Under the pieces are notes generated by a model, which saw only the letters and a list, made by a program, of their open reading frames with translations, made no database searches and was not told the DNA's origin. From the NCBI GenBank assembly GCA_951812925.1, contig OX638369.1, positions 1,178,001 to 1,242,000 of the forward strand: a stretch of 64,000 nucleotides of DNA, given 5' to 3'. Every line of letters starts with the position of its first letter. Position 1 is the first letter of the stretch. Below are positions 10,637-64,000 of the stretch, in pieces. The DNA comes from Calliopum simillimum. Lineage: Eukaryota > Arthropoda > Insecta > Diptera > Lauxaniidae. Position numbers and translations under genes: made by a program.

Positions 10637-10654
10637 AATAATTAAGAAATGAAT

Positions 10655-12040: not shown

Positions 12041-12059
12041 CCATCAGCACATTTCGAAA

Positions 12060-12670: not shown

Positions 12671-12757
12671 ACCTTCGATAGCCAGCGGAATAAAATCACA
12701 ACAATTATTGTGGAAAAAGGAACTATGTCCAAAAAACCACATTTATTCACAGCACAC

Positions 12758-12875
12758 AATAAAAGCATAACTTCACTTGGCAATAGCTCAAATAATACTG
12801 ATACTTTATACAAATATGAAAATACATTTTGTTGATTCTCTGAGAAAAACTCGTATACAGGGTGTATACGATACA
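12758..12875 (-). repeat. LTR remnant (3' side of the BEL/Pao relic)
   Basis: This matches 21889-22007 nearly base for base: the CAATAAAAGC signal, CTTCACTTGGCAATAGCTCA, and the GTGTATACGATACA end. Read on the minus strand it starts TGTATCG. It is truncated beyond 12758, where TANGO2-like sequence lies. A duplicate is at 17862-17979. Confidence 0.65.
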
Positions 12876-16618: not shown

Positions 16619-17144
16619 ATGTTCAAAAGCCAAGCTTTGGATGTAGCTGCGGTTGTGGTATTAAACATCACATTCACACCAAGGGTGAACGCGAATTGGT
16701 TGAGTTTAACTAATTGTCGCAGAGCGTAAAGCACAAAAAGCAAAAGTGCCAACTGCTTTGGATGGATTCACTTGTCGTCAGTTTCAACGTCAATCATATA
16801 GTTGACACTGAGGAAGAACCCGAAATTGATCCAAATGCTGATGAACCCGATATGGGTGAAATGCGTAGCAAGCCACAATTTCCTACAAAGAAAACCACAT
16901 GAGGACGACCAATGACCAAAAAATTTATGAAATGCGTATTTTTGAAGGCGAGTGGAATGATAAAGTATACGCTGTTGCTGGTGATGTGCTCGATGGTTAT
17001 CTATATGATTTACTTATGAATTTATTTGAAGAGAAGGGTATCAGCAATGAATTTGTTGAAAAATTGTCTGACCACTTTGCAGCAATGTACCACCGGGTCT
17101 TGATTAATATGAAGAAGGTCGCTGCTTTGGTTTTGGATAGTTTA
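16619..17144 (+). pseudogene. C1QBP/p32 pseudogene, copy 2
   Basis: Identical to the fragment at 11515-12040 (offset 5104), including the same frameshifts and central gap, so it arose by the block duplication and not by a separate retroposition. Confidence 0.8.
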
Positions 17145-17163
17145 CCATCAGCACATTTCGAAA

Positions 17164-17774
17164 AAGTACGCCAAGGGACTACAACGACGAGCACCATATT
17201 GGGGAGAACACTTAAGTGCATTAAATGTGCATATACCAGAAGCCGGTTATGGCAGTCGTACGCATACGATAACTTGATTAGATGACAACAATAAATTGAA
17301 TTTTCATGAGGAGACAATGGCTGGAGTGGATCCAGATGATAAGTGGACAACTACACATATTCAGGCCTGTTCCGTAATCCGCGTGGTTCCAATTACTTTT
17401 TAGTTAGGCGGCTTTTTGATGAAAATGGTGAGTCACACGATAAAAAGTAAAGGATCTTTTTTGCGGAGAATTTCAGGTTCTATAAATAATATTCATTTGT
17501 ATTTATTAAAAAGTATCTGTTTCGGAAATATTCGATAAAGCCTAACTTTTCGATTTTTCCCATGTTTTTAAGAATGTTTCTTAAACGGTTACTTTTTCGT
17601 TAATGCAAGTCAATGTTATTTGTAGAACCTGTAATTTTCCACAAAAAAGATTCTTATACTTTTTATCGTGTGACTCACCATTTTCATCAAAAAGGCTCCT
17701 AAATGAAAAGTAATTGAAACCATACGGATTACGGAACAGGCCTGATTGAGAAGCAATACTTTGACGATGTTTAA
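17164..17774 (+). pseudogene. TANGO2-like fragment, copy 2
   Basis: Identical to 12060-12670, with the same TGA stop and the same MITE (17362-17744) splitting the last exon-like stretch. Confidence 0.6.
17362..17744. mobile_element. Palindromic MITE, duplicate of 12258-12640
   Basis: Same CAGGCCTGTTCC ends and ATT flanks as copy 1, moved with the duplicated block. Confidence 0.8.
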
Positions 17775-22424: not shown

Positions 22425-23788
22425 TTTTTTTTTTTTTTTTTTTTTATTTCGAATAAGTCTGTATATATACAATAATTCAATTTTTAAATATTTACAGTAG
22501 TTCTACCAAAAGGTCTTATGAACTAAAAAAATGCTCACAACCAAATATAAAATTGAGCTATTATTACATACATATGTTTTATCTTAATAAGCTAAATAGG
22601 ATACAATTCAATACTTTAGAATAAAGCTATTAGTCTATTTCTATCTAATAAAAATTCTTTCAGTCTTTTTTTAAATATCACCATATTTTCTAAGCCCTTT
22701 AAGGATCTATCAAGCTCATTATAATAAATTACACCGTTATGGGAAATGTTTTGAGATGATATCATATTACACGCACGAGAGACAACCAGGTTATCTCTGT
22801 TTCTTGTATTGTAAGAGTGTTGAAAGCTTACAATTTGCACAGTGTTGGGAATTAAGTTTTTTGTTATTTTGTGAATATAGCAAAGTAATTGATATTTATA
22901 AATCTGCTTCACTGGTAAGATACGAAAGTTGAAGAATATATCCACAGAGTGATAGCGATAGTGTAAATTAAATACGTTTTTAAGCATTCTGTTTTGTATC
23001 ACCTGAATTCTATTTATATTGGAGAAAGAACCCCATGTGCCAGCTGCATACGTGATGTGACAATGCGCGAGACCAAAATAAATCAACTTCTTTACTTCCG
23101 TCGAAAGCTTATGCCTGACCTTGTAAAGTAACCCATTGACCATGGACAATTTATTTTCTACTAGATCAATATGATCATGCCAGCTCAAGAAGCAATCAAT
23201 TTTGACGCCCAGAAATTTAATGCAATTTACCTCACTTATTGCGACTCCATTATGGAGAATATCAAGACCAGACACTAACTTCCGTTTGCTGCGGAAGCAA
23301 ATGACATTTGTTTTATTTACATTAAGATGCAATTTATTCAATCGAAAAAACTCATCAAGAACAACTAAATCATCCTTCACGTCCCTTCTAATTTCATCGA
23401 TGGTATCACCAGGATAGAAAATCGAGCAATCATCTGCAAATAAGAATATTTTGCCCTTTAGTGGCAATCTTGCAATGTCGTTAATAAATATTAAAAACAA
23501 CAGAGGCCCCAGGACAGAGCCCTGAGGGACACCAACACCAACAGATTTGAAATCACTCTTTTCATTGTTAATGCAGACAAATTGTTTCCGGTTACTCAAA
23601 TAACTCTTAATTAAACTAATCGAACCTGTAGAAAACCCATAGTACTTTAATTTTTCCAAGAGAATATCGTGATCAATCGAATCGAACGCCTTGCTTAGAT
23701 CAAGAAACATTCCACCCACCAACTTGTGCCTAGCAATGTTTTTACAAACAAGGTCGACCAGTTCAATAAGAGCTGTCTGAGTATTTTT
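22425..23788 (-). pseudogene. 5'-truncated non-LTR retrotransposon, RT and C-terminus
   Basis: The minus-strand frame from about 23780 down to 22616 is open for more than 380 codons. It shows RT motifs FLDLSKAFDSIDHDIL, GVPQGSVLGPLLFLIFINDI and FADDCSIFY, and a C-terminal YNTRNRDNLVVSRACNM region common in the CR1/L2/RTE-like group. A poly(T) run at 22424-22446 is its poly(A) tail. No endonuclease or ORF1 is present, so this is a typical 5'-truncated insertion. The remaining frame has no internal stops, suggesting a fairly recent event. Clade not assigned. Confidence 0.8.
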
Positions 23789-30050: not shown

Positions 30051-31631
<1,581 letters not shown>

Positions 31632-37082: not shown

Positions 37083-38447
37083 ATGATGGAGCATAACAAA
37101 AATATTTTGGACCCCAATACATGTCCAATGTTTCCTTCAAATGCAACTGATGACAACAACCATAATATATTAGATTCAGGGTGGCAAACTAACCATAAAA
37201 GAACCAGAAGATCTTCTAACACCAGCAATATTGAAATTGAAGATCATGCCTTCACTAATTGGTTCCAACTTTTGGACGATTATTCAATTACCTTGCAAAA
37301 CAATGGTTCGAATGAAACCAGAGCACGCGCAGCTCAAATGGTTGGTCAACATAATGAAGTCAATCGTAGAAATTCGGAAGCTGATGTTGGAAGTCTCAAT
37401 ACCACAACATCTATGAAAACTCAAGAGAAAAAGAGTAAGTTTTGCCCTCCAATAATGGTATCAAATGTAGATATGAAGGATTTGGCAAAATATCTGAAAT
37501 CTATAAATGCGAATTTTAGAATCAAATATAATGCAAAAAAAAGTAAAATTTTGGTTGAAAGTAGAGAGCTTCATCGGGCTTTGCTTGAGAAATTTAGGGA
37601 GACTTCAGGTGTAGCTGCGTTCTCTTTTACTCCTAAAGATGAACAAACAAATAATGTTATCTTGAGAGGCTTGAGTGCCAATTATGAAAATGACGAACTA
37701 ATTAAAGAAATTAACAGTTTTGTTCCTGGAGCGGTGGACAAAGTTGAGAACTTCGTAACGTCAAAATCTTTAAAAGATGGTTTCAAATATGATTTGTTTT
37801 TGGTTCGGGTTCTGCCCGGTAAATATTTGAGTGAGGTACTAAAAATCAGGTATTTATTCAACACTCATATATTTTGGGAGAAGCCAAAAAGGAACACAGG
37901 TCCACCACAGTGCAAGAGATGTCAACAATATGGACACATAGCAAAGAATTGTGCCAGTGAGTACAAATGCGTTAAATGCACTAACAGTCATAAGCCTGGT
38001 GAGTGCACTATTTTAAAGTCATTAGGTCATTCTCCCACTTGTGTGAACTGCGGAAAGGGTCATCCCGCCAATTATCGTGGCTGTGAAAAATTTCAAATTT
38101 ACATTCAGCAACGAAAGGAATTTTTAACGAAAGCAAGAGAGGAGAAAGAGAAAAGAACTTTATCGTCTTTCATCTCTGTCAAGAGTCCACCTCCACTTAC
38201 TGCTTCTTTTGCTAGCCACTTTAGAGTTTAGGGCGATTCTGACCCGGTTCCTTGTAGAAACCTTAATTCAAATAATATACTGGGTCAATTTTTTGATCTT
38301 TCTAAAAGCCTTTTTGGTTTGGATGTTCATGGCCTATTAGGCAAAATTGAAAATTTTTTAAAAAATCTTAACAATTTCAGCTCTGTGCAAGATAAAAGAA
38401 TGTCATATTTGGAACTGTTAAGTCAATTAATTTTGAGTGACAAATAA
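37083..38447 (+). pseudogene. Jockey-type ORF1 (Gag-like), one in-frame UAG
   Basis: Open from the first ATG at 37083 to TAG at 38229-38231 (382 aa); the frame upstream to 36903 has no ATG. The C-terminal half has three retroviral-type zinc knuckles starting CKRCQQYGHIAKNC, then CVKCTNSHKPGEC and CVNCGKGHPANYRGC, preceded by a PRE_C2HC-like region (NVILRGLSANYENDELIKEI). After the TAG the same frame stays open for 71 codons to TAA at 38445-38447, which overlaps the ORF2 ATG as TAATG. I read this as an ORF1 that normally ended at the TAATG and has gained one nonsense mutation. Its role would be RNA binding in the retrotransposition particle. Confidence 0.8.
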
Positions 38448-41371
38448 TGAATTTGAACTTTTTATCATTTAATTTATCTTCATTGATTGAACATAGCAGG
38501 AGAATTGAACTTTTAAAAATCCTACAGGCAAATAACATCTCTTTAGCTTTTATTCAAGAAACTCATCTTAACGTTCGACATAAAATCTCTCTTGACAAAT
38601 TTAATTTTTTAAGAAATGATGCACAGCAAGGGGTTGCGATAGCTATCAGGGCCGACATAGGTTATAGCATTGTTGATTTGCCAAATCTAAAATTTCCTAG
38701 TATCTTTATTTCTTTAAACATAAGACTCAGAGGCGAAAATAAAACTTTTCTCTGTGGCTCTATTTATTTTCCATCAAATTGTAAATCAGACTTATTGCTG
38801 GAAGAACTCATTAAAATTGAAACTCTGATCTCGCGTTTTGATGGTGCTGTGATTGGTGGTGATCTGAATGCTCGCAGTCAAAGTTGGGCGGATTCTATGC
38901 TTAATTCTAATGGTAGAATCATTGAAAATTGGCAAAATATGTTGCCATCGTTGTTGGTTGTAACACCTGCTACTCCTACGTTCCCTAGAAGCTCTTCATT
39001 TTTAGATCATTTTTTGGTCTCTTCTCATTTAATAAATCTTATTGACATTAATTACAGCATTAGGACTTTGTCCACTTTTTCTGATCATTGTCCAGTTTTA
39101 CTTAATTTAATTTTCGAGGATATGGAATTAAATTTACGACAGTCAAACTTTGGGAAATCCTTTAAGAACACCAATTGGGAGGCTTTCCGGGAGGACCTAG
39201 ATAATAATCTTTTGCCTTGTCTACCTAATTCAAGCTGTAATCTCACAAATATTGAGATAGATAATTTAATCATCAACTTTAATAGGATTCTTAATGAAAC
39301 TCTGGACAGACATGCTGATGTTGTAACTGCTAATTACAAGAAATATGCCAATCTCCCTAAGGATATTTTGAAACTTTTTAAAGTAAAACACATCTGGCAA
39401 AAGCAATTAAAAAACATTTTCCATAGGAACTTTAACAGATTAAACAATGAGTATAAGGAACTATCTTGCAGAATTTCATTGGTTAAAAAAATTATTAAAG
39501 ATAGAGTCAGTATATGGCTTAACAAAAAATTTGGTGATAGATTAACTAACATTGTTCCAGGCCCGTTTGCTTTTAGAGAAATTTTTAGAATAATTGGAAG
39601 AAAGAAGAACTTATCCATCAATCGAATAATAGTGGATGAAAATTCGATTACCAATGAACATGAGATAGTCTCCGCCTTGGCAAATCATTTCAAGGATTCA
39701 TTCAAAGAAGTTACTCCCATTTTTAACCCAAATTTAGTCACGGAAGTTCATTCCACTGTTCAAAACATGCGTACGTCTATGCCTCAACATATTTTTGTAT
39801 TTGAACCCGAAAACTCTGCTTTAAATCCTCAGATCGCTGAATTTTTCACTTCAAAAGAAGAGATTTTAGATATAATTCAAAGTTTCAAACCTAAAAAATC
39901 ATGTGGTCCTGATAATATTTCTAACTTCGCACTTAAAAAGATCTCAGACACAGGAGTGAACTTTCTGACAATTATTCTAAATAATTGTTTAAATAATGGA
40001 TACTTTCCGTTAATTTGGAAAATTGCCAAGATAATACCCTTGGCGAAAAATCCTAAAGATCCATACATCAATAACTTCCGCCCAATTTCGTTATTATCTA
40101 ATGTGGGTAAAATTCTTGAAAGAGTTATTATGCTAAAAATTGATTCCCCTGAACAAGTTCCAATTGATTTAATACCGGAGCATCAATTCGGTTTCAAAAG
40201 CAAACATTCGACTGTTCACGCACTACTTAAGTTCCATAACGATGTCACGCTGGGTTTACGGGAAAAAAAATGTACTGTCATCTGCTCTTTAGATATTGAA
40301 AAAGCTTTTGATAGAGTCTGGAGAGAGGGGCTAATTTATAAATCTCTACAGCTGAATCTTCCGCTTTACATTGTTCATATGTTGAACAGTTTCTTGTCTG
40401 ACAGGAAATTCTTTTTGCAAATCCAAGCCACCAACTCTAATACTTTTGACTCTAACAGTGGTGTAGCTCAGGGGTCAGTAATGGGTCCTAAATTATTTAA
40501 TATGTTGTTGCATGATTTTCCACACAATGTATTTGCTAATGATAATCTCTTGTCCACTGCTATTCTCTTTGCTGATGATACTTTGGTTTATGCAAATGAT
40601 TACTTTCCTTTAAATGCATTGAAAAAAGTGCAGAATCATGTCAATAATATAAACAAATTTTATAAAAGCTGGGGGATTAAAATAAATGTCCAGAAATCAA
40701 ACTGTATTTGTATTAGAAATGCAAGTGGAAAAGGAAAAGAAGGAGCTGTTCGAGAAAGCAGAAATTTAAAACTAATAATTGATGGTACGGTTATTCCATT
40801 TAGAAATACTATTAAATATTTGGGAGTTAACTTTAATCAGTTATTCAAGTTCAACCATCATGCTAGACTGAATATGGAAAAAGCCAGGAAAGTCATTAAT
40901 ATTCTCTCGTCTTTATTAAACAAGAAAGAACTGATGAAAAGGACGAAATTATTACTTTACAAAACGCTCATTAGACCCGTGTTATTATATGCCTTCCCCT
41001 GTTGGTTTTCTATCTCCCCTGTGGTGGCTTCTGAAATGGAACGGCTAGAAAGAAAAGTTCTTAGGTGGTGTATAAGTAAAAATTTTGAAACCAGAACAAA
41101 AAGATTTTCAAATGCTACATTATATAATGATTCTAATATTACTCCTATCATAAAATATGCTGTGTTTCTCATGAAAAGATGCATCTCTTCGCTTATGAAC
41201 CATGAAAATAAAGTCATAGAAAGCATTTACACCTCTCAACAGGGCATTACTTGGTCTAACTCTCCATACCAATCTCCGGTTGGTGTAATTTATGAAGATC
41301 TCGATACCATTCCCAATGAAGCTCCCATTCCCTATTACCTTAAGGCCACGTCTGGTCATAACCGCGGGTAA
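38447..41371 (+). CDS. Jockey-type ORF2, AP-endonuclease and reverse transcriptase
   Basis: 974 aa, uninterrupted. N-terminal apurinic-type endonuclease: FIQETHL (E), GGDLNARSQSW (D, N), then SDHCPVLL (D/H) near residues 35-225. RT: CGPDNISNFALKKI, NFRPISLLSNVGKILERVI, SLDIEKAFDRVW, SGVAQGSVMGPKLF and FADDTLVYA (catalytic FADD). No RNase H, as usual for Jockey. The start overlaps an ORF1-frame TAA (TAATG), the layout used by LINEs that reinitiate ORF2 translation. All catalytic residues that can be judged are present. Confidence 0.9.
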   Translation: MNLNFLSFNLSSLIEHSRRIELLKILQANNISLAFIQETHLNVRHKISLDKFNFLRNDAQQGVAIAIRADIGYSIVDLPNLKFPSIFISLNIRLRGENKTFLCGSIYFPSNCKSDLLLEELIKIETLISRFDGAVIGGDLNARSQSWADSMLNSNGRIIENWQNMLPSLLVVTPATPTFPRSSSFLDHFLVSSHLINLIDINYSIRTLSTFSDHCPVLLNLIFEDMELNLRQSNFGKSFKNTNWEAFREDLDNNLLPCLPNSSCNLTNIEIDNLIINFNRILNETLDRHADVVTANYKKYANLPKDILKLFKVKHIWQKQLKNIFHRNFNRLNNEYKELSCRISLVKKIIKDRVSIWLNKKFGDRLTNIVPGPFAFREIFRIIGRKKNLSINRIIVDENSITNEHEIVSALANHFKDSFKEVTPIFNPNLVTEVHSTVQNMRTSMPQHIFVFEPENSALNPQIAEFFTSKEEILDIIQSFKPKKSCGPDNISNFALKKISDTGVNFLTIILNNCLNNGYFPLIWKIAKIIPLAKNPKDPYINNFRPISLLSNVGKILERVIMLKIDSPEQVPIDLIPEHQFGFKSKHSTVHALLKFHNDVTLGLREKKCTVICSLDIEKAFDRVWREGLIYKSLQLNLPLYIVHMLNSFLSDRKFFLQIQATNSNTFDSNSGVAQGSVMGPKLFNMLLHDFPHNVFANDNLLSTAILFADDTLVYANDYFPLNALKKVQNHVNNINKFYKSWGIKINVQKSNCICIRNASGKGKEGAVRESRNLKLIIDGTVIPFRNTIKYLGVNFNQLFKFNHHARLNMEKARKVINILSSLLNKKELMKRTKLLLYKTLIRPVLLYAFPCWFSISPVVASEMERLERKVLRWCISKNFETRTKRFSNATLYNDSNITPIIKYAVFLMKRCISSLMNHENKVIESIYTSQQGITWSNSPYQSPVGVIYEDLDTIPNEAPIPYYLKATSGHNRG

Positions 41372-48926: not shown

Positions 48927-49787
48927 ATGACTAATTGTGATAAATGCAAAAATGCAATTCGTGGTGAATCGGGCATTAGATGTGCGAGAGTGTGTGGAAA
49001 AATATACCACTACACTGCTAAATGTAGCGGCCTGGACACCTATACAAGTAACATATTTGCTTCGTGTGAGAGAGTGCGGTACATATGTGACGACTGTATG
49101 TTGTACATAAAAAATGTTGATGCTGTTGTGAGAGAAATGCATGAAACGGTGGAAAAAAATTGTAACTTTTTAAGTAAATGCAAAACAGATTTTGAGGAAA
49201 GTTTTAACAAAAAAGAAGCTGAAATAAAAAGTCTTTTGAAAGCTTCACTATCTTCAAGTGCACAAGCAATAAGCAAAATAAGTGAGTTTAATGAATCGTT
49301 TAAGAAGCAAAGTGATCAAATAAGTGATGGTGTCACCAAAATAACAACAGCTTCCGAATCTATAACAGAGATTAACGAAAAAATATTGAAACACAACGAA
49401 AACAAACCTGATGAACAATTAAAAGAAAGTGTCAAAAATATTTCAAAGTCAGTCAGTGCACTTACACATGAAATAAAAAAGAACAACAATGGCTTAGCAG
49501 ATCAAAACAAAAAAAGTGGTCTATATTCTGACATTTTAAAGAATAATGAGTCAGCTGTTCTTATTTACCCCAAGAACAAGCAAGAGTCAAATGAAACACG
49601 AAAACAAATCAAAGAGAAAATAGATCCTACTAACATAAACATAAACAATTTGGTGAACAAAACTGATGGTTGCGTAGCAATTAAATGTGGTGACAAAGCC
49701 ACGTCCGAAAAACTTAAAAATGAAATTATGTCAAAATTCAAAGATGAATATAAAGTAGTTGTGCCTGCCAAATATAAACCAAAAATT
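48927..49787 (+). pseudogene. LINE-A ORF1, N-terminal part with PHD-type zinc finger
   Basis: From ATG 48927: MTNCDKCKNAIRGESGIRC, HYTAKCSG, and CERVRYICDDC place Cys/His in the C-x2-C ... H-x4-C ... C-x2-C order of a PHD-like finger (residues about 4-57). A long predicted coiled coil rich in K/E/S follows, then VPAKYKPKI, where the frame is cut at about 49787 by another LINE. The matching C-terminal half resumes at 52897. PHD-bearing ORF1s occur in several LINE clades. LINE-A clade not assigned. Confidence 0.75.
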
Positions 49788-50799
49788 TAAAAGGTCAGGT
49801 TTGCCAGCTGACAGAGAAATCTTCAGTTTGCGTAGACGAGAGTTTGAATTCCTTTCAAATTTTTTGTACAAAAAATATATTTTTTCGATTGAAAATGATA
49901 TAAGGACTAACTCCAAATCTTTTTGGTTGTTTTTAAATAATAAAAGAAAATCTCTTGGTTTCCCTAAATCTATGGAATCTGATGGCGTTGTAGGCAATAG
50001 TACTGAGGAAATTGTTGAATTGTTTGCCGATTTCTTTGGGACGGTATTTAATTCTAGCAGTGCTCAAATTAATGCTAATAATTTTTCTGATTTGCCCCAA
50101 TATTTAAATATCGGGAATTTAAATATTCCAGATGATGTTGTTTTAGAAGCCTTGAACTCCCTTGATTGTAATAAAGGTGCTGGATTTGACTTGCTCCCTC
50201 CACAATTTTTTAAAAATTGTGCAAATTGTTTGTATGTTGCTCTCGGGTTGCTTTACAATAAATCCCTTTCCAGCGGTATTGTTTTAAATGAATGGAAAAC
50301 CGCTTGCATTTCGCCAATATTTAAATCTGGTCAAAAATATAAGATTGAAAATTACAGAGGTATTGTAAAATTTTCAATTATTCCTAAAATTCTAGATAAA
50401 ATTGTGAATAGGCTTTTATTCTCCGAGATAAAAAATTATATTGCAACTCAACAACATGGTTTCTTTAGTGGTAGATCCACTACAACTAATCTTGCGATTT
50501 TTTCAAATTATTGCTTAAATGTAATCGAAGGCGGTTCACAGGTAGATGTTCTGTACACCGATTTTAAAAAAGCGTTTGATAGTGTGGATCATCATATTTT
50601 ACTATTGAAGCTTGAAAAGATGGGTATACATTCACAGCTTTTGAAATGGATTGAATCTTATCTAACGGGTAGAACACTGATGGTTAAGATTGGTGAGCAT
50701 TATTCAAGATCTATAGTTGTTAATTCGGGTGTTCCTCAAGGTAGCCACTTAGGTCCTTTACTTTTCAATATCTTTATTAATGACATTCCTCTCATTTTT

Positions 50800-51275
50800 A
50801 TACCCTACACCCAGGGTATATTCACTTTGTCCTTCCGTTTGTAACGCAGAGAAGGAGGCGTGGCAGGTATAGAAAAGTATATATATTCTTGATCAGCGTC
50901 ACCTCCTGAGTCGATATAGCCATGTCCGTCTGTCTGGCTGGCTGGCTGGGTGGCTGGCTGGCTGGCTGGCTGTGTGTTGAAATACACTTTTTGGGAAAAC
51001 TGAGCAAGATAATTCAATGAAATTTGGTACACTGCCTCCGTCGTCAAAGTTAGCTCGGGGGATTGAAAATGAGCAAAATCGGTCAACGGACACGCCTACC
51101 GCCCATACAAAAATTATATTCAAAATGCAATTTTAGGAGTATTTTTCACGACAATGCAACCACAATACATATAAGTACTACGAATTGTAAGCGCAAGCTC
51201 TGATAAAAATTTGAGCGAATTCGGACAAGATGGCGTGGCACCTCCCATATAAGCAAAAGATTCAAAATGCTATAC
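50800..51275 (-). mobile_element. Repeat 'C', copy 1, in LINE-B RT
   Basis: Begins ATACCCTACACCCAGGG, with CCTTCCGTTTGTAACGCAGA, GAGGCGTGGCAGGTATAG, GATCAGCGTCACCTCCTGAG, CGATATAGCCATGTCCGTCT and a (GGCT)n microsatellite. Its end near 51275 reads TTCAAAATGCTATAC. Excising it rejoins INDIPLIF to NCLLYADD. No transposase. These words resemble a repeat common in fly genomes, but I cannot name it. Inverted relative to copy 2. Confidence 0.75.
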
Positions 51276-54232: not shown

Positions 54233-55231
54233 ATGGACTATTTTTCGTCTGACAATCTTTGTGAGTGTTCATTGGGTGTAAAATGTCAAAATCAAAATAT
54301 TTTACATGCAATGTTTCCCTGTTCGGGTCCCTGCGAACAGATGTTTCATGCATCTTGCGTGGGGTTTTCCAATTCTATTACTGGTATGATTAACTCTCCG
54401 CGTTCAGGGCTGCAGTGGTACTGTGCCTCTTGTCGAGCCTATTCTCCCTCGACTTTTTTCGAAAAGATAAGATTATTTGGGGAGAATTTAAACGATTTGA
54501 ATTCTAAATTCAAAGATATTATCTCAAACTATAATGACCTTACTCCTTCAATGGATATTACCATAAATGAAACTACAGTTATTAATGAAACTGTAGCTTT
54601 CAATATAGATATCGCTGAGGCTCCCGGGGTTTCATTGACCTCTTCCCCCAAATCGCCTACACAGCCAATTAATGAAACTGTAGCTTTCAATAATGATATC
54701 GTTGAGGCACCCGGGGTTTCATTAACTCCTTCCCCCAAATCGCCTGCACAACCAAAAATAAAAAAAAGGCGTACGAAGAAAAAAATTCAAAAAATTTCAA
54801 ACACTGAGAATGTTACCGCCAGTAATCAGGTAAAATTATCACCAATAGCTCAGCCCACTAACGATTGTCCATTACCCCCTCCAATGCAAGTCATGAATGC
54901 GGCTGTTGGCCCTGAGGCTCCTATTTTTTTGAGGTCTTTACCTAGAACAAGACCCATTTTCATTTCACGATTGCACCCCGACACAACTTGTGACAATGTG
55001 AAAGATTTTATAAGACAAAATAATATTATTCCTTCTGACGCCTTTTTGTCTTGTAAAAAAATTGGCAATAAACCAACTCATGCGTCATTCGTCATTACAA
55101 CGGCTTCGTCTAATTTCGATGCCATTATTAATTCAAGCCTGTGGGTTGATAATTTATATATTTCTGAGTTTAAGCCCAAATTCAATAATAAGATTTCCAA
55201 AAACGCTAAGGGCTCTATTCAAAAAAACTAG
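54233..55231 (+). CDS. LINE-D ORF1, PHD-like finger protein
   Basis: 332 aa. CECSLGVKC...FPCSGPCEQMFHASCVG...WYCASC (residues 10-67) is a PHD-like Cys/His finger. A 29-residue unit starting INETVAFN and ending in PKSP.QP is tandemly duplicated (residues 117-145 and 146-174). A basic patch KIKKRRTKKKIQK follows. The C-terminal ~90 residues (IFISRLHPDTTCDNVKDFIR ...) look like the small RRM-like fold of several LINE ORF1 proteins. It ends at TAG 55229-55231 right after a slippery heptamer. Expected role: nucleic-acid binding and chaperone in the RNP. Confidence 0.8.
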   Translation: MDYFSSDNLCECSLGVKCQNQNILHAMFPCSGPCEQMFHASCVGFSNSITGMINSPRSGLQWYCASCRAYSPSTFFEKIRLFGENLNDLNSKFKDIISNYNDLTPSMDITINETTVINETVAFNIDIAEAPGVSLTSSPKSPTQPINETVAFNNDIVEAPGVSLTPSPKSPAQPKIKKRRTKKKIQKISNTENVTASNQVKLSPIAQPTNDCPLPPPMQVMNAAVGPEAPIFLRSLPRTRPIFISRLHPDTTCDNVKDFIRQNNIIPSDAFLSCKKIGNKPTHASFVITTASSNFDAIINSSLWVDNLYISEFKPKFNNKISKNAKGSIQKN

Positions 55232-58095
55232 ATAGATTGTCCCTTTACTATCAAAATGTAAGGGGGCTACGTTCTAAGACGCACGAAGTTTTTTTAGAAA
55301 CTCAGAATTTCTCTGACGACATAATTATTTTTACTGAGACTTGGTTAAGCAGAAATATACTTAGTTCTGAACTGTTTGACCATAGTTTCAATGTTTTTAG
55401 AAGGGATAGATATGAAGATGATTTCTCCTCTGTTGGTGGAGGTGTTCTTATAGCTATCAAAAATTATTTGACTAGTTCATTGTTCGAAGTACCTTATGCG
55501 TCTGACTTGGAGATTATTTGCGTTAAAGTTTTACTTAGAAAATCCTGTTTATACATTTTAAACGCTTATATACCTCCTGGTAGTAGTACTGAAGTATATG
55601 ATAATCTGTCACAGGCCGTAGATGCTATCGTCAATGAACTTAATGATAACGACGAAATTTTATTGTTGGGTGATTTTAATTTGCCTGGCCTTAAATGGAG
55701 TTTTTCTGAGGATGACACATATTCGTATGCGTCTAATCCCACAACTCGACAACAACATATATTTGTTGATGAAATTTTAACCAATTTACAACAAGTTAGT
55801 TGTATAACAAACTGTCAAGGGCGACAACTTGACTTGGTGTTGGCTACTGATACTAACAATATTGTAGTTAACAATGCTCTCCATGCCCTATCTGTGGTGG
55901 ATGGCTATCATCCTCCTTTAAGTATTTTATTTCAAATTGACAACAATAACTTTCATGACTCTACTTCACCAATTAAAATTTATGAATATAATTTTAAAAA
56001 AGCTGACTTTGTGAAGTTAAACACTATTTTAGAAAACAAGCTCAGCAATATGCTGAATTTTTTTAATGACAATTCTCTAGATGCTTGTATAAATATTTTT
56101 TATAGTGAGCTAACTTCAGCAATATCACTGTCAGTACCACGTATTATAAAAAAACTTGATATTTCGTCATACCCATGGTACTCGAAAGAGTTGAAAAATT
56201 TACGTAATTGTCGTAATAGAGCATGGAAAAAATACGTCAGTAGTCAAAATCAAAATGACCTTGAAACATACGATCATTTGTTTCAGGAATTTAAATTTAA
56301 ATCAGCTTCAGCCTATTCTGATTACATGAATAAAGTGAAGTTGAATATATTACATGACCCCAAGAACTTTTGGGGTTTTATAAACTCCAAAAAAAAATCT
56401 GACGGGTTTCCGTCCGAATTCAAGGCATTGGAAGGGTATACAAATAACCCTAAAATTATTGCCGAGTTATTTGCCAACTTGTTTAAAAAATCATTTTCAA
56501 CAGATCTATTTTCTCCAGATGTAAATTATTTCGATTTCATGGATAATGATCCAACAGTTTCAATCAATGAGTTTTCAATTTCACCGGAAATTATATTGAA
56601 ATATATTGTATCTGTTGAAGATAGTTCTTGTCCAGGTCCTGATGGCATACCTGCTACAGTACTTGTTAATTGTAGCTCAATTCTGAGCCAGTTGCTTAGT
56701 TTCTTGTTTAATAAATCTTTAACTGATTGCTATTTTCCTAAACAATGGAAAGAGTCTTTTATAAGCCCTATATTTAAAAAAGGATGTAAAAATGATGTAT
56801 CTAATTACAGACCCATAGCTAAGTTATCAACAATTCCTAAACTATTTGAAAAGATTATTTATGATCAAGTAAAGGTCTATTGCAATGAAATAATTTCAAC
56901 ACGTCAGCATGGATTTGTCAATGGTAGATCTACAGTCTCAAACCTTCTTGATTTTTCTTCTTTTGCCTTGAGTTCACTTGACTCTGGCTGCCAAGTTGAC
57001 TGTATCTACACAGATTTCAGTAAAGCATTTGACAAGTTACCACATAGTTTAATTATTTTTAAACTAAAAAAGTTTGGATTTCCTTCCACCTTTATCGCTT
57101 GGATTGAATCTTATTTATCAGAACGTTCTTACCAAGTAAGATTTCGCAAAAACTTATCTTCTCCATTTACGGCGACTTCTGGTGTCCCGCAAGGTAGTCA
57201 CCTAGGACCTTTACTTTTTATCTTAGCTATAAATGATGTAACCCATATCATCAAAAATTCTAACCTTCTAGTTTATGCGGATGATATGAAAATTTTCAGA
57301 TCCATAAGGGAGAGTAACGAAACTCATCTGCTTCAGTCTGACTTGAAATCCTTTGAAATTTGGTGCTTTAAAAATAACTTGCATCTTAATCCCGATAAAT
57401 GCCAAACTATTACATTTTCTAGGAAGAAAAACAACATAAAATATGATTATGTATTAAAAGACAAAAACATTTGTCGTGTCGATTTTGTTAAAGATTTAGG
57501 TGTTCACTTTGATGATAAAATATCATTTAATGAACACATTAATCAAGTATGTAAGAAAGCGGCTTCTCTGCTCGGTTTTATTAAAAGATGGGCCAAAGAA
57601 TTTAATAATTCATTAATAACAGTAACTTTATATAATACGATCGTGCGTCCTCACTTGGAGTACGCTAGTCAAGTTTGGTCACCATTTTATAACGTTCATA
57701 TTGATAGAATCGAAAGAATCCAAAAGAATTTTATTCGATTTGCTCTGAATGGCCTAAATTGGGTTGATCCTTTGAACCTTCCTCCTTATGAGGATCGTTT
57801 GAAGTTACTTAAATTGCAGTCTCTAAGGGAACGCAGAGATAATGCAGATATTCTATATTTGCACCAACTTGTCACTGGGTCCCTTGCTGCTCCAGAGCTT
57901 TTAAACTATATTTTTTTCAATATAAATAGGAGAAGCGATCGTAATTCTCCACAATTATTTTACCAACCGGTTAGTAGAACTAATTATATGTTTTCTGCTC
58001 CTTTTAATCGCATGACAACCCTTATCAATAACTGTGAATTTTATAATGTTAACTTGTCAAAAGGTCAACTCAAACTTAGATTGAAAAATAACTAG
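55210..58095 (+). CDS. LINE-D ORF2, AP-endonuclease and reverse transcriptase
   Basis: The frame opens at 55210; the conserved protein starts LSLYYQNVRGLRSKTHEVFL at 55237 with TTG, not ATG. Endonuclease: FTETWLS (catalytic E), LGDFNLPGLKW (D, N), and a DGYHPPLSILF region in place of SDH. RT: CPGPDGIPATVLVNCSSIL, NYRPIAKLSTIPKLFEKII, YTDFSKAFDKLPHSLI, SGVPQGSHLGPLLFILAIND and YADDMKIF (YADD). C-terminal LEYASQVWSPFYNVHIDRIE and RTNYMFSAPFNRM. Over 950 aa with no lesions seen. Close to LINE-B by motif spacing; clade unassigned. Confidence 0.85.
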   Translation, partial: GLYSKKLDRLSLYYQNVRGLRSKTHEVFLETQNFSDDIIIFTETWLSRNILSSELFDHSFNVFRRDRYEDDFSSVGGGVLIAIKNYLTSSLFEVPYASDLEIICVKVLLRKSCLYILNAYIPPGSSTEVYDNLSQAVDAIVNELNDNDEILLLGDFNLPGLKWSFSEDDTYSYASNPTTRQQHIFVDEILTNLQQVSCITNCQGRQLDLVLATDTNNIVVNNALHALSVVDGYHPPLSILFQIDNNNFHDSTSPIKIYEYNFKKADFVKLNTILENKLSNMLNFFNDNSLDACINIFYSELTSAISLSVPRIIKKLDISSYPWYSKELKNLRNCRNRAWKKYVSSQNQNDLETYDHLFQEFKFKSASAYSDYMNKVKLNILHDPKNFWGFINSKKKSDGFPSEFKALEGYTNNPKIIAELFANLFKKSFSTDLFSPDVNYFDFMDNDPTVSINEFSISPEIILKYIVSVEDSSCPGPDGIPATVLVNCSSILSQLLSFLFNKSLTDCYFPKQWKESFISPIFKKGCKNDVSNYRPIAKLSTIPKLFEKIIYDQVKVYCNEIISTRQHGFVNGRSTVSNLLDFSSFALSSLDSGCQVDCIYTDFSKAFDKLPHSLIIFKLKKFGFPSTFIAWIESYLSERSYQVRFRKNLSSPFTATSGVPQGSHLGPLLFILAINDVTHIIKNSNLLVYADDMKIFRSIRESNETHLLQSDLKSFEIWCFKNNLHLNPDKCQTITFSRKKNNIKYDYVLKDKNICRVDFVKDLGVHFDDKISFNEHINQVCKKAASLLGFIKRWAKEFNNSLITVTLYNTIVRPHLEYASQVWSPFYNVHIDRIERIQKNFIRFALNGLNWVDPLNLPPYEDRLKLLKLQSLRERRDNADILYLHQLVTGSLAAPELLNYIFFNINRRSDRNSPQLFYQPVSRTNYMFSAPFNRMTTLINNCEFYNVNLSKGQLKLRLKNN
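55222..55267 (+). promoter_or_regulatory. Predicted -1 ribosomal frameshift site, ORF1 to ORF2
   Basis: The heptamer A AAA AAC (55222-55228) is in the correct phase directly before the ORF1 stop TAG. After a 10-base spacer a hairpin follows: 55239-55248 (GTCCCTTTAC) pairs with 55258-55267 (GTAAGGGGGC) over 10 bp with two G-U pairs and a 9-base loop. ORF2 is in the -1 frame, overlaps ORF1 by 22 bases and has no ATG near its start. Parts seen directly; frameshifting inferred. Confidence 0.65.
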
Positions 58096-58450: not shown

Positions 58451-58650
58451 NNNNNNNNNNNNNNNNNNNNNNNNNNNNNNNNNNNNNNNNNNNNNNNNNN
58501 NNNNNNNNNNNNNNNNNNNNNNNNNNNNNNNNNNNNNNNNNNNNNNNNNNNNNNNNNNNNNNNNNNNNNNNNNNNNNNNNNNNNNNNNNNNNNNNNNNNN
58601 NNNNNNNNNNNNNNNNNNNNNNNNNNNNNNNNNNNNNNNNNNNNNNNNNN
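58451..58650. other. Assembly gap, 200 Ns
   Basis: Exactly 200 N, probably a placeholder and not a measured length. It sits at the left edge of the 530-bp tandem array, so the true copy number is unknown. Confidence 1.
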
Positions 58651-58937
58651 TGTCATCATTCATGTTGTGTGGAATTTTCGATTCTTGCAAAACATTGACT
58701 AAAGTTCATAAAATTAGTATAATTTTCATATAGTCAACATAAACCATTTTAAGTAATAATGGAGAACACGCCAAATATGTGCAACTGGCAACACTTGTCA
58801 GTCATATAATATAACGGTATTGATTCTCAGCCAATGGCTGAGCCTTACAAAACAAACACAACATGAATGATGACAAAGGAGTATAGAGAATGAAACCACG
58901 CTACATGCATATAGGCACTTAAGCTACCAATTTTTCC

Positions 58938-59019
58938 GAGGGCACACAGCGCAGTCCGTTGATAAATGCGCTATGTAGAGAGATTGATTTCGAAAGGTTC
59001 ATAGATCGATCCCGGCCTC
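58938..59019 (+). other. tRNA-like segment in the 530-bp unit (repeats at +530)
   Basis: AGCGCAGTCCGTTGATAAAT followed by GCGCT forms a 5-bp stem like a D arm and matches the A-box pattern (AGCGCAGTCCG against TRGCNNAGYNGG) with two mismatches. GGTTCATAGATCGATCC about 45 bases on resembles an expanded B box. GAGG and CCTC at the two ends could pair. No clear anticodon arm. It could be a Pol III promoter relic as in SINEs. Confidence 0.35.
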
Positions 59020-59081
59020 AGACAAAAAGTTCAAAAATTTTTCAATTGTTATTTCATTTAATTTAAAATATATTAAATAAA

Positions 59082-59144
59082 ACATAAATTGGTCTGATGA
59101 TGGTTACGTGGCGGTAACCGAAACATATGTCACCATAGCCATGT
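59082..59144 (+). ncRNA. Hammerhead-ribozyme-like motif, unit 1
   Basis: Core CTGATGA (59094-59100); stem II GGTTAC/GTAACC (59102-59107/59114-59119) with loop GTGGCG; GAAA (59120-59123); short stem III ACA/TGT with a 2-base loop (59123-59130); cleavage triplet GTC (59129-59131); stem I TGGT/ACCA (59090-59093/59132-59135), an internal loop, then ACAT/ATGT (59082-59085/59141-59144). This is the type I layout with a minimal stem III known from animal satellites and Penelope-like elements. One flaw: an extra T (59101) between the core and stem II. Confidence 0.65.
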
Positions 59145-59611
59145 TCAGTAGTTTTTTCTCTTCTCCTAATTGTCATAATATTCTAAGTTGGAAAATGCAT
59201 GGAATTTTCGATTCTTGCAAAACATTGACTAAAGTTCATAAAATTAGTATAATTTTCATATAGTCAACATAAACCATTTTAAGTAATAATGGAGAACACG
59301 CCAAATATGTGCAACTGGCAACACTTGTCAGTCATATAATATAACGGTATTGATTCTCAGCCAATGGCTGAGCCTTACCAAACAAACACAACATGAATGA
59401 TGACAAAGGAGTATAGAGAATGAAACCACGCTACATGCATATAGGCACTTAAGCTACCAATTTTTCCGAGGGCACACAGCGCAGTCCGTTGATAAATGCG
59501 CTATGTAGAGAGATTGATTTCGAAAGGTTCATAGATCGATCCCGGCCTCAGACAAAAAGTTCAAAAATTTTTCAATTGTTATTTCATTTAATTTAAAATA
59601 AATTAAATAAA

Positions 59612-59674
59612 ACATAAATTGGTCTGATGATGGTTACGTGGCGGTAACCGAAACATATGTCACCATAGCCATGT
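59612..59674 (+). ncRNA. Hammerhead-like motif, unit 2
   Basis: Identical in all 63 bases to unit 1, including the extra T after the core. Predicted cleavage between 59661 and 59662. Confidence 0.65.
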
Positions 59675-60141
59675 TCAGTAGTTTTTTCTCTTCTTCTAAT
59701 TGTCATAATATTCTAAGTTGGAAAATGCATGGAATTTTCGATTCTTGCAAAACATTGACTAAAGTTCATAAAATTAGTATAATTTTCATATAGTCAACAT
59801 AAACCATTTTAAGTAATAATGGAGAACACGCCAAATATGTGCAACTGGCAACACTTGTCAGTCACATAATATAACGGTATTGATTCTCAGCCAATGGCTG
59901 AGCCTTACCAAACAAACACAACATGAATGATGACAAAGGAGTATAGAGAATGAAACCACGCTACATGTATATAGGCACTTAAGCTACCAATTTTTCCGAG
60001 GGCACACAGCGCAGTCCGTTGATAAATGCGCTATGTAGAGAGATTGATTTCGAAAGGTTCATAGATCGATCCCGGCCTCAGACAAAAAGTTCAAAAATTT
60101 TTCAATTGTTATTTCATTTAATTTAAAATAAATTAAATAAA

Positions 60142-60204
60142 ACATAAATTGGTCTGATGATGGTTACGTGGCGGTAACCGAAACATATGTCACCATAGCC
60201 ATGT
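60142..60204 (+). ncRNA. Hammerhead-like motif, unit 3
   Basis: Identical to unit 1. Predicted cleavage between 60191 and 60192. Confidence 0.65.
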
Positions 60205-60671
60205 TCAGTAGTTTTTTCTCTTCTCCTAATTGTCATAATATTCTAAGTTGGAAAATGCATGGAATTTTCGATTCTTGCAAAACATTGACTAAAGTTCATA
60301 AAATTAGTATAATTTTCATATAGTCAACATAAACCATTTTAAGTAATAATGGAGAACACGCCAAATATGTGCAACTGGCAACACTTGTCAGTCATATAAT
60401 ATAACGGTATTGATTCTCAGCCAATGGCTGAGCCTTACCAAACAAACACAACATGAATGATGACAGAGGAGTATAGAGAATGAAACCACGCTACATGCAT
60501 ATAGGCACTTAAGCTACCAATTTTTCCGAGGGCACACAGCGCAGTCCGTTGATAAATGCGCTATGTAGAGAGATTGATTTCGAAAGGTTCATAGATCGAT
60601 CCCGGCCTCAGACAAAAAGTTCAAAAATTTTTCAATTGTTATTTCATTTAATTTAAAATAAATTAAATAAA

Positions 60672-60734
60672 ACATAAATTGGTCTGATGATGGTTACGTG
60701 GCGGTAACCGAAACATATGTCACCATAGCCATGT
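60672..60734 (+). ncRNA. Hammerhead-like motif, unit 4
   Basis: Identical to unit 1. Predicted cleavage between 60721 and 60722, which would release a 530-nt monomer from unit 3 to unit 4. Confidence 0.65.
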
Positions 60735-60866
60735 TCAGTAGTTTTTTCTCTTCTCCTAATTGTCATAATATTCTAAGTTGGAAAATTCATGGAATTTTCG
60801 ATTCTTGCAAAACATTGACTAAAGTTCATAAAATTAGTATAATTTTCATATAGTCAACATAAACCA

Positions 60867-61960
60867 ATTTATTTTAAAAAATTTTAAAAAATTCAAACCG
60901 CCTTAACCGACTTCGCTATTTAAATAAAAACAAATCAAAAAGTTTTATTTTTATAATTTATTGTAGATGCATTTCGACTTTTAGGTCATCATCAGTCAAA
61001 CGAATTTAAAGACTAACAAAATTGAGTACGCCTATTAACATTTTTGGCGTATATAGCATAAAACAAATTTTAATAAAACAGAAGTGGGAAGAGAAAATTA
61101 TTAAAACTAGGAACAGTTTGTTATTGTTGCTTATAAAAGTAAGTAAAAGGAAAAGCTAAGCAAACTAGCAAAATGTAAATACGCAAAGCATACAAAGATT
61201 CAAAAACAATATCCAAAAATAAAACAATATCAAAAAACACGAAAATCGCGTCATAAGAAATTTTTTGTACATAAGCAAATAAATGCAAAAAAGCAAAAAA
61301 CAAAACGCAAAGCATAATGTAAACAGAATTAAAAATAAAAACACGGCCTAGCAATAAATATGCAGCAAAGCGCAGCAACCATCAATTTGAAAATTTTACT
61401 TTTTCAGAATACTGAAAAGGGATGACCTGATCGGCGCTTCCATTGTGTTCATACTTCTGTTCTGGTTTTTATGCATGTAAATGCTTTCGTACGCGTCCAA
61501 GCTTTTCTCGTCTCTGATTTGTTTGATTAGCTTTAGATTTTCTATGCTAAAGCTGTGCAAAAAATTTCTTATGACGCGATTTTCGTGTTTTTTGATATTG
61601 TTTTATTTTTGGATATTGTTTTTGAATCTTTGTATGCTTTGCGTATTTACATTTTGCTAGTTTGCTTAGCTTTTCCTTTTACTTACTTTTATAAGCAACA
61701 ATAACAAACTGTTCCTAGTTTTAATAATTTTCTCTTCCCACTTCTGTTTTATTAAAATTTGTTTTATGCTATATACGCCAAAAATGTTAATAGGCGTACT
61801 CAATTTTGTTAGTCTTTAAATTCGTTTGACTGATGATGACCTAAAAGTCGAAATGCATCTACAATAAATTATAAAAATAAAACTTTCTGATTTGTTTTTA
61901 TTTAAATAGCGAAGTCGGTTAAGGCGGTTTGAATTTTTTAAAATTTTTTAAAATTGCATA
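60867..61960. mobile_element. Foldback element, arms about 390 bp, spacer about 290 bp
   Basis: AATTCAAACCGCCTTAACCG (60890 region) faces CGGTTAAGGCGGTTTGAATT. The arms continue through GATGCATTTCGACTTTTAGG and GAGTACGCCTATTAACATTT to about 61270, mirrored from 61560. Each arm carries CTGATGATGACCTAAAAGTC followed by GAAATGCATC (left arm on the minus strand), a degenerate hammerhead-like core. An 85-codon frame on each arm looks like low-complexity hydrophobic sequence and not a protein. Confidence 0.75.
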
Positions 61961-62019
61961 AAATAAATTAGACTTCGCGGTATTGTCCGTTTTATTATTA
62001 GTATACGGCTAATAATAAA

Positions 62020-64000
62020 TATAATTTAAAGAGACTGTTGCTGTAATTTACAGATCACCAAGTAGTTCAGAACGTGAATTTTGTGCAATCTTCTCAGATT
62101 GGCTTGATAGAATGTTATACTCAAATCTTAATATAGTAATTTTTGGAGATTTTAATATTAATTTGCTAGACAATAACTATACTTACACTAAAGCTTTTAA
62201 TGATGTCCTAATATATAACAACTTAATACAAATAATTAAAAAACCTACAAGGATTGCGGAATTTTCGAAGTCGTTAATTGATTTTGTTATTTGCCCCAGA
62301 GAAAGAAATATTAAGGCAGACACTGTTCCAGAATTTAAAATCGGTGATCCCGTGAAAAATAAGAAATTTAAAAACGATAAAATATATATTGATCGATTTA
62401 TATATAAAAAAAAATCAATTTAGAGAATTTCTTATTGAAATGTGTGGCAATATTAATTGCAATACAGACTTCAATGTGTTGGCCTTGACGTTAGAAAACA
62501 GTTTAATGCATTGTGTAAAAAAACAAATAAGAAAGTCAAAAGTCAATTACGATAATAAATGGTTTACAGATGAAGTGCGTACCTTAAAATATAACAAAAA
62601 ACAGTGCTTCCGTAGGGCTAGTATTTTAAACAGGCCAGAAGATTGGCATGCTTACAGAAACACTCGCAACACGTATAAAAATAAGATTAACCTTGCTAAA
62701 AGAAATTATACGTGTAACAAAATTTAATCATGTTCCAATCAAAAAGATATGTGGAAAACAATTAAGAAATTAGTTTTGAAAGAGGAAAATGCAAAAATCA
62801 GTGAAATTCGATTCGGTGATAGTTTGGAAACAGATAATTCTGTCATTGCTAATAAGCTCAATGCTCACTTCATAGAAAGCATTAATGTAATTACTAACTC
62901 AATACCTTCGGTTAATAATCAGTGTAACGTGGACATTCCTGAATCCCAAAAGTTTTTTAAATTCAAAGAAATAAATTTAAATGAGCTAAAAGCAGTTTGT
63001 AGAAAAATGAATTCAAAAAAAGCGTTTAATGTAAATATTAACATCATCCAGGATTGTTTTGATATAATTGGTCCAATAATACTACGAATAGTTAATGAGT
63101 CTTTCCGGTGCGGTGAGTTTCCAAGAAACTTAAAGAAATCTACCGTTATTCCGATACCTAAAGAAGCAGCTACAAATGACTGTGAAAAACTTAGACCCAT
63201 AAATATGATGCCATTACTTGAGAAAATTGTGGAAAAGTGCGCGTACGAACAATTTTATAAATTCGTGTGTGATAATAAAATTTTGATTGAAAATCTGTCA
63301 GGCTTTCGCCATGATCACTCATGTGAAACGTCTTTAAATTGGCTACCAACAACTCTTAAAGAAGAGAGACATGGTGGCAATAAAATAATAACACTATTTT
63401 TGGACTTTCAAAGAGCTTTTGAAACTATTGATCGAGATATACTTCTCAGTAAATTATCCAAATATGGTATTAAGGGCTCTGAGCTGGAATGGTTTAGATC
63501 GTACTTAACAGACAGAACACAAGTGACAAATATAAATAATGAAACGTCGAGTGCAATTAAAAGATGTTTCGGTGTCCCACAAGGAACCATTCTAGGTCCC
63601 TTACTGTTCCTGTTATACATAAACGATATCTGTAAAGTATTAAAAAAGTGTAAAATATCATTGTTTGCAGATGATGCCCTATTGTTTATAAGTGGTAAAA
63701 ACTTGAGTGAACTCATTGAAGGTATAACAGAAGATTCAAACAATCTTTGTGTATGGCTTCGAATAAACAAATTAAAAATAAATGTTAATAAGACTAAATG
63801 TATGGTGGTCAATAGTAATGAAACAGTAAATTTAATGATAGATGGAAAACCCATAGAACAAGTGAATGAAATTAAATATTTGGGTGTTATACTCGATTCT
63901 AAACTGAACTTTCATAGTCATATGACATACGTGGCGAAAAAAATCTCAAAGAAAATAGGGTTCCTCAAGAGAATAAGAAAAAATGTTACCATAATGTGTG
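62020..64000 (+). pseudogene. LINE-A ORF2, endonuclease C-terminus and RT (runs off the window)
   Basis: VIYRSPSSSEREFCAIFSDW, FGDFNINLL (endonuclease), then a frameshift at an A-run (about 62406-62413) and a TAA at 62725-62727, then RT: PKEAATNDCEKLRPINMMPL, LFLDFQRAFETIDRDIL, FGVPQGTILGPLLFLLYIND, SLFADDALLF (FADD), EIKYLGVILDSKLNFHSH. Same element as 48927-49787, 52897-53382 and 53383-53625. The frameshift and stop make this copy inactive. The C-terminus lies beyond 64000. Confidence 0.8.

Follow-up and report, generated by a model that had tools for sequence, protein, structure and literature searches.

How did a tandem array of 530-bp units, each complete one carrying a hammerhead-like ribozyme motif, come to lie in the genome of the fly Calliopum simillimum? 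The array is found in a 64-kb stretch of contig C2 (C2:1178001-1242000, hereafter the window, whose own numbering is used for all positions below), and relatives were sought throughout the genome (690 Mb, 334 contigs). We consider it probable that the array is a single insertion of a small, non-coding and non-autonomous retroelement of the retrozyme type, for which a reverse transcriptase was supplied in trans, most likely by a Penelope-like element (PLE).

Architecture of the array and its hammerhead motif

Four identical 38-nt cores, CTGATGATGGTTACGTGGCGGTAACCGAAACATATGTC, lie on the forward strand at 59094, 59624, 60154 and 60684, spaced by exactly 530 bp, in agreement with the original prediction, made from the sequence alone, of a 530-bp tandem array with a hammerhead motif in every full unit. 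The predicted cuts fall after 59131, 59661, 60191 and 60721, and unit positions (u) are numbered from the predicted cut. The array extends from 58670 (u69) to 60866 (u145) and consists, all on the forward strand, of a 5'-truncated first unit that ends at the predicted cut (58670-59131, u69-530), three complete cut-to-cut units (59132-59661, 59662-60191 and 60192-60721) and a last partial unit (60722-60866, u1-145), which ends near the integration site Q described below. The 20 bases between the assembly gap (58451-58650) and the array (58651-58670, reverse strand) are an inverted copy of u274-255 (20/20 matches) and not in-phase unit sequence; the prediction had the 530-bp units right and overlooked this fragment.

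One unit is 99.4% identical to each of the other three, and when the inverted left edge and one right-edge base are set aside, only 7 of the 530 columns vary. The G+C content of the unit is 34%, and open frames in the units reach 60 aa at most. The identity of 63 bases around the motif in all four units, put forward earlier as an argument because other parts of the unit vary, carries little weight, since, with so few variable columns, 63 bases in a row would escape change in roughly 4 cases out of 10.

The type I hammerheads span 59089-59141 (core 59094-59131, predicted cut 59131/59132), 59619-59671 (59661/59662), 60149-60201 (60191/60192) and 60679-60731 (60721/60722), all on the forward strand. 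The core runs in the order CUGAUGA, an unpaired U, stem II (GGUUAC/GUAACC with the loop GUGGCG), GAA, stem III and the cleavage triplet GUC. Stem III is the palindromic ACAUAUGU, which can be read as ACA/UGU with a 2-nt loop or as AC/GU with a 4-nt loop, and stem I combines UGGU/ACCA (4 bp) with a distal AACAU/AUGUU (5 bp) across an internal loop. All four units contain what a type I core requires (C3 U4 G5 A6 N7 G8 A9, G12 A13 A14, A15.1-U16.1, H17 and three stems). Loop II may also pair with the 3' side of stem I (UGGC/GCCA), a match that would arise by chance with a probability of 0.02 in three registers and 0.08 in any register. The unpaired U between A9 and stem II (59101 in the first hammerhead) departs from the standard hammerhead core; the original prediction had missed this extra base.

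The motif is rare by chance. A descriptor that requires stems of 4, 2 and 3 bp or more, applied to both strands of the window, matched the four unit cores and nothing else. One strand of 20 Mb of Markov sequence gave a single match at the loose setting and none at two stricter settings, and a stage-wise estimate for both strands puts the frequency per Mb at 0.01 for loose and 3e-4 for strict matches.

The extra U recurs in hammerheads of viral contigs. At least 120 viral loci were fetched with a general hammerhead pattern, and a second pattern, taken from the window core, added 117 more for a total of 237. These loci, at least 237 in number, hold 249 descriptor hammerheads, and 120 of these have one extra base after A9 (U in 118 of the 120), a count biased by the 117 loci that were fetched with the window-derived pattern. 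Three of the 120 already lay in loci of the window-free scan. Loci with such an extra U include L078, L105 and L106. The exact window motif gave no match in scans of prokaryote and viral contigs. In chrysanthemum chlorotic mottle viroid, an extra residue occupies the same place in the core, and the portion of the report available describes a 3-4-fold rise in trans-cleavage upon an A-to-U change there (PMC3705267).

Two covariance models were built from the viral sequences. The first (R1) used 17 viral-contig hammerheads that lack the extra base and were fetched without any window sequence. Over the window it gave six matches up to E 10, one in each of the four units (all 12.8 bits, E 0.1) and one in either arm of a palindrome beside the array (13.0 bits, E 0.083). 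In an alignment of 23 viral-contig hammerheads, the stems and the loop II-stem I contact (a pseudoknot) covary, and the model made from those 23 sequences (R2) scored 35.6 bits (E = 6e-8) in each unit. R2 was set aside as independent proof, since its sequences had been fetched mostly with the window-derived pattern.

Relatives in the genome and conservation of the hammerhead

The core pattern has 4,254 matches in the genome (2104 + 2150 on the two strands), against 473 (222 + 251) for the reversed pattern. Among the matches listed, which are the first places of contig C1, we distinguish family B, to which the window array belongs, families A and C, and chance-like matches. Family A has the stem II GUCUUU/AAAGAC and no extra base, and family C resembles A with a longer loop II. 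The aligned units are 542 (A), 530 (B) and 398 bp (C, overall 385-410 bp) long.

In the alignment of the three families (14 distinct rows), 94.1% of the cells are paired, compared with 31-47% in slid controls. Between families A/C and B, 5 of the 17 stem pairs changed on both sides. The covariation score was 0.300 versus 0.122, and neither the score nor the cell count was reached in any of 500 shuffles of the 3' letters. These paired changes mostly represent one ancestral split between B and A/C. The invariance of the core in the alignment is partly selected, because most rows were found by their core, and some rows have lost features, namely GUC in L252:209 and the first stem II pair in L271 and L263.

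Conservation within family B is pronounced. In six diverged B copies, 5 of 376 hammerhead positions differ, compared with 342 of 2918 outside it. The search bait fixes 14 of the 53 hammerhead sites; when these are omitted, the same copies show 5 differences in 278, 6.5 times less than outside (p = 3.7e-9). The hammerhead segment ranks 12 of 530 in conservation in B and 51 of 542 in A. Random substitutions in the core and stems, which the original prediction had named as counting against a ribozyme, are therefore not what these copies show, with the proviso that they were found by their core. Since the structure, the paired changes and the conservation in related copies agree, the assignment of the window motif to the type I hammerheads, as a variant with an extra U, is supported despite the absence of an Rfam match in the window, and self-cleavage is predicted.

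Insertion of the related copies

We hand-picked 20 loci from the listed places, all on contig C1: eight with an opposite-strand neighbour, three same-strand groups and nine single places. Fifteen of them (seven, three and five of these classes, respectively) are head-to-head copies with two mapped ends. Their common plan is an inverted arm, a variable junction, at least one forward unit, and outer ends at 3' positions of the unit. The outer ends of all nine B copies fall at two places, u118-131 (site P) for one end and u150-156 (site Q) for the other; the corresponding intervals of the six A copies are u125-142 and u161-182. The P/Q pattern, read by eye, thus appears in 15/15 two-ended copies, with a spacing by BLAST ends of about 20-37 nt in B and 33-55 nt in A.

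Exact target duplications of 12-15 bp flank 14 of the 15 copies, and the same search on mispaired flanks (n = 210) found at most 10 bp. Unit sequence accounts for the whole length of the 15 copies, and none contains a protein segment. In every one of them, at least the forward arm passes through the cut junction, which indicates that the template was circular or uncut. Copies that lack the core are unsampled, because the bait was the core just upstream of the cut; copies of a linear monomer would have stood out by an end at the cut.

The window copy fits this plan, with an inverted piece at its left and its right end near Q. From the plan, the gap (58451-58650) should hide the rest of the inverted arm. 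The proposed link to retrozymes and Penelope-like elements is thus backed by the insertion mode directly observed on the related copies, in their start sites, target duplications and junction read-through. The suggestion that a much larger satellite array continues beyond the gap finds no such backing: most of the related copies examined are bounded insertions.

Proposed life cycle

Cutting, circle formation and the identity of the enzyme are the parts that we infer. Multimeric transcripts would cut themselves at GUC, and the units would be ligated into the 530-nt circles suggested by the original prediction or remain partly uncut. The junction-continuous RNA would then be copied by a reverse transcriptase supplied in trans, which would nick AT-rich DNA on both strands and start copying at two internal sites, located in the B family some 118-131 and 150-156 nt 3' of the cut. 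Two cDNAs meeting head to head would leave inverted and tandem units between 12-15-bp target duplications. The short palindromic stem III could favour the pairing of two units.

The enzyme is most likely that of a Penelope-like element by analogy, a proposal made because the insertion fingerprint matches that of the PLE Poseidon PAc. The purified PAc protein cuts AT-rich DNA, extends both strands and starts in the RNA at two adjacent sites, and the stretch between these start sites is the 30-40-bp tail of genomic copies (PMC11167929). PLEs are described as a strong candidate for retrozyme integration on account of shared type I hammerheads, tandem occurrence and co-existence, in the part of that study available (PMC7229834). 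The copies here carry a direct integration fingerprint that bears on how animal retrozymes integrate. Two internal start sites, priming on both strands, 12-15-bp duplications and read-through of the cut can be tested for in other genomes.

Observations against the proposed element

Several observations weigh against this interpretation. Rfam reports no hammerhead in the window, either at the gathering score or at E up to 10. As a control, we scanned 20 viral loci drawn from the at least 120 fetched with the general pattern; 17 of them hold 30 descriptor-positive type I hammerheads. None of the 30 was reported at the gathering score, and at E up to 10, four of the five hammerheads in one control (L082) appeared, with 21.7-26.2 bits at cut-offs of 34-52. 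Silence at the gathering score is therefore weak evidence, because most control hammerheads are missed too, and silence at E up to 10 indicates that the window motif is atypical. Rfam was dropped as a judge of the window motif after most controls had failed; the lack of a covariance-model match, which was to speak against the ribozyme in the original prediction, does occur, yet says little.

The predicted folds are also unfavourable. The energy-best fold is a competing hairpin (-18.4 versus -10.5 kcal/mol for the single hammerhead), and the two-unit hammerhead (-32.8 kcal/mol) is modelled as less stable than the best dimer fold (-41.5 kcal/mol). In the accessible part of the pDo500 report, the hammerhead was not the best fold in 113 of 146 sequences rated active (PMC2837043). 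Newt and axolotl hammerheads with a weak stem III are described as acting in pairs (PMC7229834, PMC6155905, each in the part available), and the palindromic stem III of the window resembles theirs. As a predicted circle, the unit has a better fold than 60 shuffled versions of it (z -4.1 for the forward and -3.0 for the reverse strand), with 64% of its bases paired. From the portion of the Aedes report at hand, the hammerhead tested there showed no in vitro cutting (PMC3088659).

Other points concern the comparison of copies. The number of both-side-changed pairs is reached by 386 of 500 shuffles, and the contrast is weaker in three diverged A copies (5/221 versus 133/2133, p = 0.015). All 20 loci examined are hand-picked and come from one contig. 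One of them (L263) has an end at the cut site, two (L271 and L276) have no inverted arm, and two others (L264 and L277) share only 59 bp; L266, one of the 15 two-ended copies, has no target duplication. In the window copy, the left end falls in the gap. Finally, the cutting of the PAc hammerhead is unneeded for insertion in vitro, and it cuts only with the protein (PMC11167929).

Alternative explanations

The last point bears on a version of the preferred explanation in which an uncut multimeric transcript serves as the template and circles have no role. That the PAc ribozyme is dispensable in vitro and cuts only with protein favours such a template: PAc accepts unprocessed RNA for insertion, and mutants of its ribozyme behave normally in this respect in vitro (PMC11167929). 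The competing hairpin predicted for the unit would likewise hold the ribozyme off. On the other hand, this version leaves the conservation of the core in diverged copies unexplained, and that conservation suggests that the cut has a use. Animal retrozymes, moreover, accumulate as linear and circular RNA in the part of the report available (PMC7229834). Within the preferred explanation, we give the uncut multimer somewhat less than an even share.

Alternatively, the unit may be one part, the pseudo-long terminal repeat (pLTR), of an autonomous Penelope-like element and not an independent non-autonomous element. PLEs carry hammerheads at tandem pLTR-open reading frame junctions and show two-site ends (PMC11167929). 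Since no frame in the units exceeds 60 aa and the 15 two-ended copies consist of unit sequence throughout, with no protein segment, we regard this origin as improbable.

An ordinary satellite that owes its spread to gene conversion or unequal crossing-over, and in which the hammerhead is a decaying passenger, would account for tandem units that are about 99% identical and for the homogeneity within an end of the chromosome-end arrays described below; a hammerhead satellite is known in Dolichopoda, from the part of the report available (PMC2837043). It does not explain the 12-15-bp target duplications in 14/15 two-ended copies, the fixed end sites and head-to-head arms, or the hammerhead conserved in diverged B copies. 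The satellite reading, very unlikely for the array as a whole, is contradicted for the two-ended interspersed copies and could still hold for the growth of terminal arrays.

Chance resemblance to a hammerhead, for which the silence of Rfam in the window and the competing fold could be cited, is hardly credible given the low null rates, the genome counts against the reversed pattern, the paired changes, the conservation, and a match to Rfam Hammerhead_3 (37.8 bits, E = 1e-6, with a cut-off of 48.5) in a family C unit from a chromosome end.

Comparison with known systems

Close counterparts of a non-autonomous element of the retrozyme type are the metazoan non-long-terminal-repeat (non-LTR) retrozymes, which share with it a type I hammerhead per unit, tandem organisation, low G+C content and the absence of coding sequence. 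According to the available part of the report (PMC7229834), they occur in insects among others, as dimers to multimers, and have target duplications of more than 4 bp, as seen here in the related insertions, whereas those of plant retrozymes are 4 bp. Differences from them, on the same partial source, are the unit length (530 bp versus the usual 150-450 bp or so, which is not a strict definition), the extra U in the core, the inverted arms and the two-site integration fingerprint. The predicted 64% pairing of the circular unit is below the "above 70%" given in the part of PMC4918200 available.

The element resembles PAc in having a hammerhead upstream of two internal reverse transcription start sites about 30-40 nt apart, an AT-rich target, extension of both strands and a tandem organisation (PMC11167929). 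Here the starts lie about 118-131 and 150-156 nt after the cut, compared with about 85-92 nt for the main PAc site, as computed from its cut at +26 and start at 111-118 (PMC11167929). Because the window unit, unlike PLEs, has no reverse transcriptase/GIY-YIG open frame, we do not class the element as a PLE.

Two insect systems are alike by description, in the parts of their reports available. The interspersed repeats of Aedes aegypti are dipteran and carry hammerheads, with loop-stem pseudoknots predicted in about 40% of those examined; the inactive example perhaps needs a dimer, and the available text describes no integration fingerprint (PMC3088659). Dolichopoda pDo500 is an insect hammerhead repeat of about 500 bp, whose best fold is often not the hammerhead; a double-hammerhead form was proposed, the satellite makes up about 5% of one genome, and the available text again describes no insertion fingerprint (PMC2837043).

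Schistosoma Sm-alpha combines a hammerhead with tRNA sequence, in the part of the report available (PMC4918200), and the sister units A and C resemble it in carrying full RNA polymerase III (pol III) boxes. Units A (u356-409, L270) and C (u181-235, L249) have perfect A and B boxes in a tRNA-like segment, with 16/16 matches against a null maximum of 14 in 400. Since T runs precede the ribozyme in the C unit, pol III transcripts may terminate before they reach it. The window segment that aligns with this tRNA-like stretch (59468-59549, forward strand) has no recognisable boxes, unlike Sm-alpha. A pol III promoter in the window unit was rejected: one consensus gave 14/18, the null 95th percentile, and another gave 12/16, the null median. 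ARAGORN found no tRNA in the window or in 18 related loci, and Rfam found none in the tRNA-like segment of the window unit.

Arrays of a sister family at the ends of large contigs

The five largest contigs, C1-C5, were taken as chromosomes because they are 117-163 Mb long. Family C arrays stand at six of their ten ends, always with the sense strand inward: at the starts of C1, C3 and C5 and in the last 2 kb of C3, C4 and C5 (L246, L249, L251, L281-L283). They fill about 2.2 kb of the first 10 kb of C1, and the first 10 kb of C3 and C5. Family C is absent from the end of C1, from the starts of C2 and C4 (10 kb each) and from the end of C2 (2 kb), and three of these four ends carry other tandem repeats, of 326, 376 and 227 bp (L247, L250, L280). 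Contig C6 (19.8 Mb) has degenerate family C units and two intact A cores at its start, and family C is missing from its final 2 kb. None was found in seven small contigs (C7-C13, first 10 kb each). Some 1.24 Mb separate the window array from the start of C2.

The unit length differs from end to end (406, 398, 402, 385, 410 and 391 bp), and any one array is made up either of identical units or of two kinds; in the array that opens C3, all 24 of 24 units are the same. Twelve probes of 600 bases gave matches at just two places, 20 kb from the end of C4 and 20 kb from that of C5. If the arrays are continuous, those opening C3 and C5 would be 10-20 kb long, those closing C4 and C5 20-50 kb, and the one closing C3 less than 20 kb. 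Owing to an upstream ACATATGT at L249:212-281, a type III reading of the C-unit core, in line with the type that Rfam matched, is also possible, and judged from this sequence, one C-unit core might use two cut sites.

In the part of the report available (PMC12051294), dipterans lack telomerase and have either retrotransposons or long complex repeats at their chromosome ends, and RNA intermediates are proposed for such repeats. The arrays here resemble such telomere repeats in being complex repeats at scaffold ends, where they are expected over the terminal 10-50 kb; in contrast to the repeats described there, every intact unit here has a ribozyme core, and the word "ribozyme" is absent from the text of PMC12051294 as available. 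A tentative possibility, which we think rather unlikely to hold, is that a family of ribozyme-bearing circular or rolling RNA maintains the chromosome ends of this fly by means of a Penelope-like enzyme. Circles released by hammerheads would be reverse-transcribed round and round onto the ends by this enzyme, which would give long runs of identical, inward-facing units with a length of their own at each end, and the window array would be an internal insertion of a sister of the telomeric RNA. If a repeat at chromosome ends carries a ribozyme, this would point to a new route by which ends can be grown from RNA. Contig ends are not proof of telomeres, and recombination would also give inward-facing homogeneous arrays.

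Neighbouring features of the window

Beside the array lies a palindrome (60866-61970) with arms of 401 nt at 60871-61271 and 61554-61954. Each arm has a weaker core resembling a minimal hammerhead (61824-61873 on the forward and 60952-61001 on the reverse strand), arranged head to head and with the same extra U. A target duplication was looked for around 60866-61970 and none was found. We treat the palindrome as a separate element of uncertain membership, which could be a second insertion of the Penelope type.

Elsewhere in the window, two adjacent 5.1-kb stretches (9923-15028 and 15027-20132) are 99.98% identical and represent a recent tandem duplication or an assembly duplicate. Exons of a Smad gene lie on the reverse strand at 30051-31631, with MH1 and MH2 domains by Pfam (one frame scanned); we take this gene to be closest to fly Mad, a likeness that suggests a higher fly. 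Frames of non-LTR retrotransposons with reverse transcriptase and/or endonuclease domains are present at 22616-23788, 38441-41371, 49759-50844, 55210-58095 and 62025-62423; two of them are near full length, and one stops about 355 bp short of the gap beside the array.

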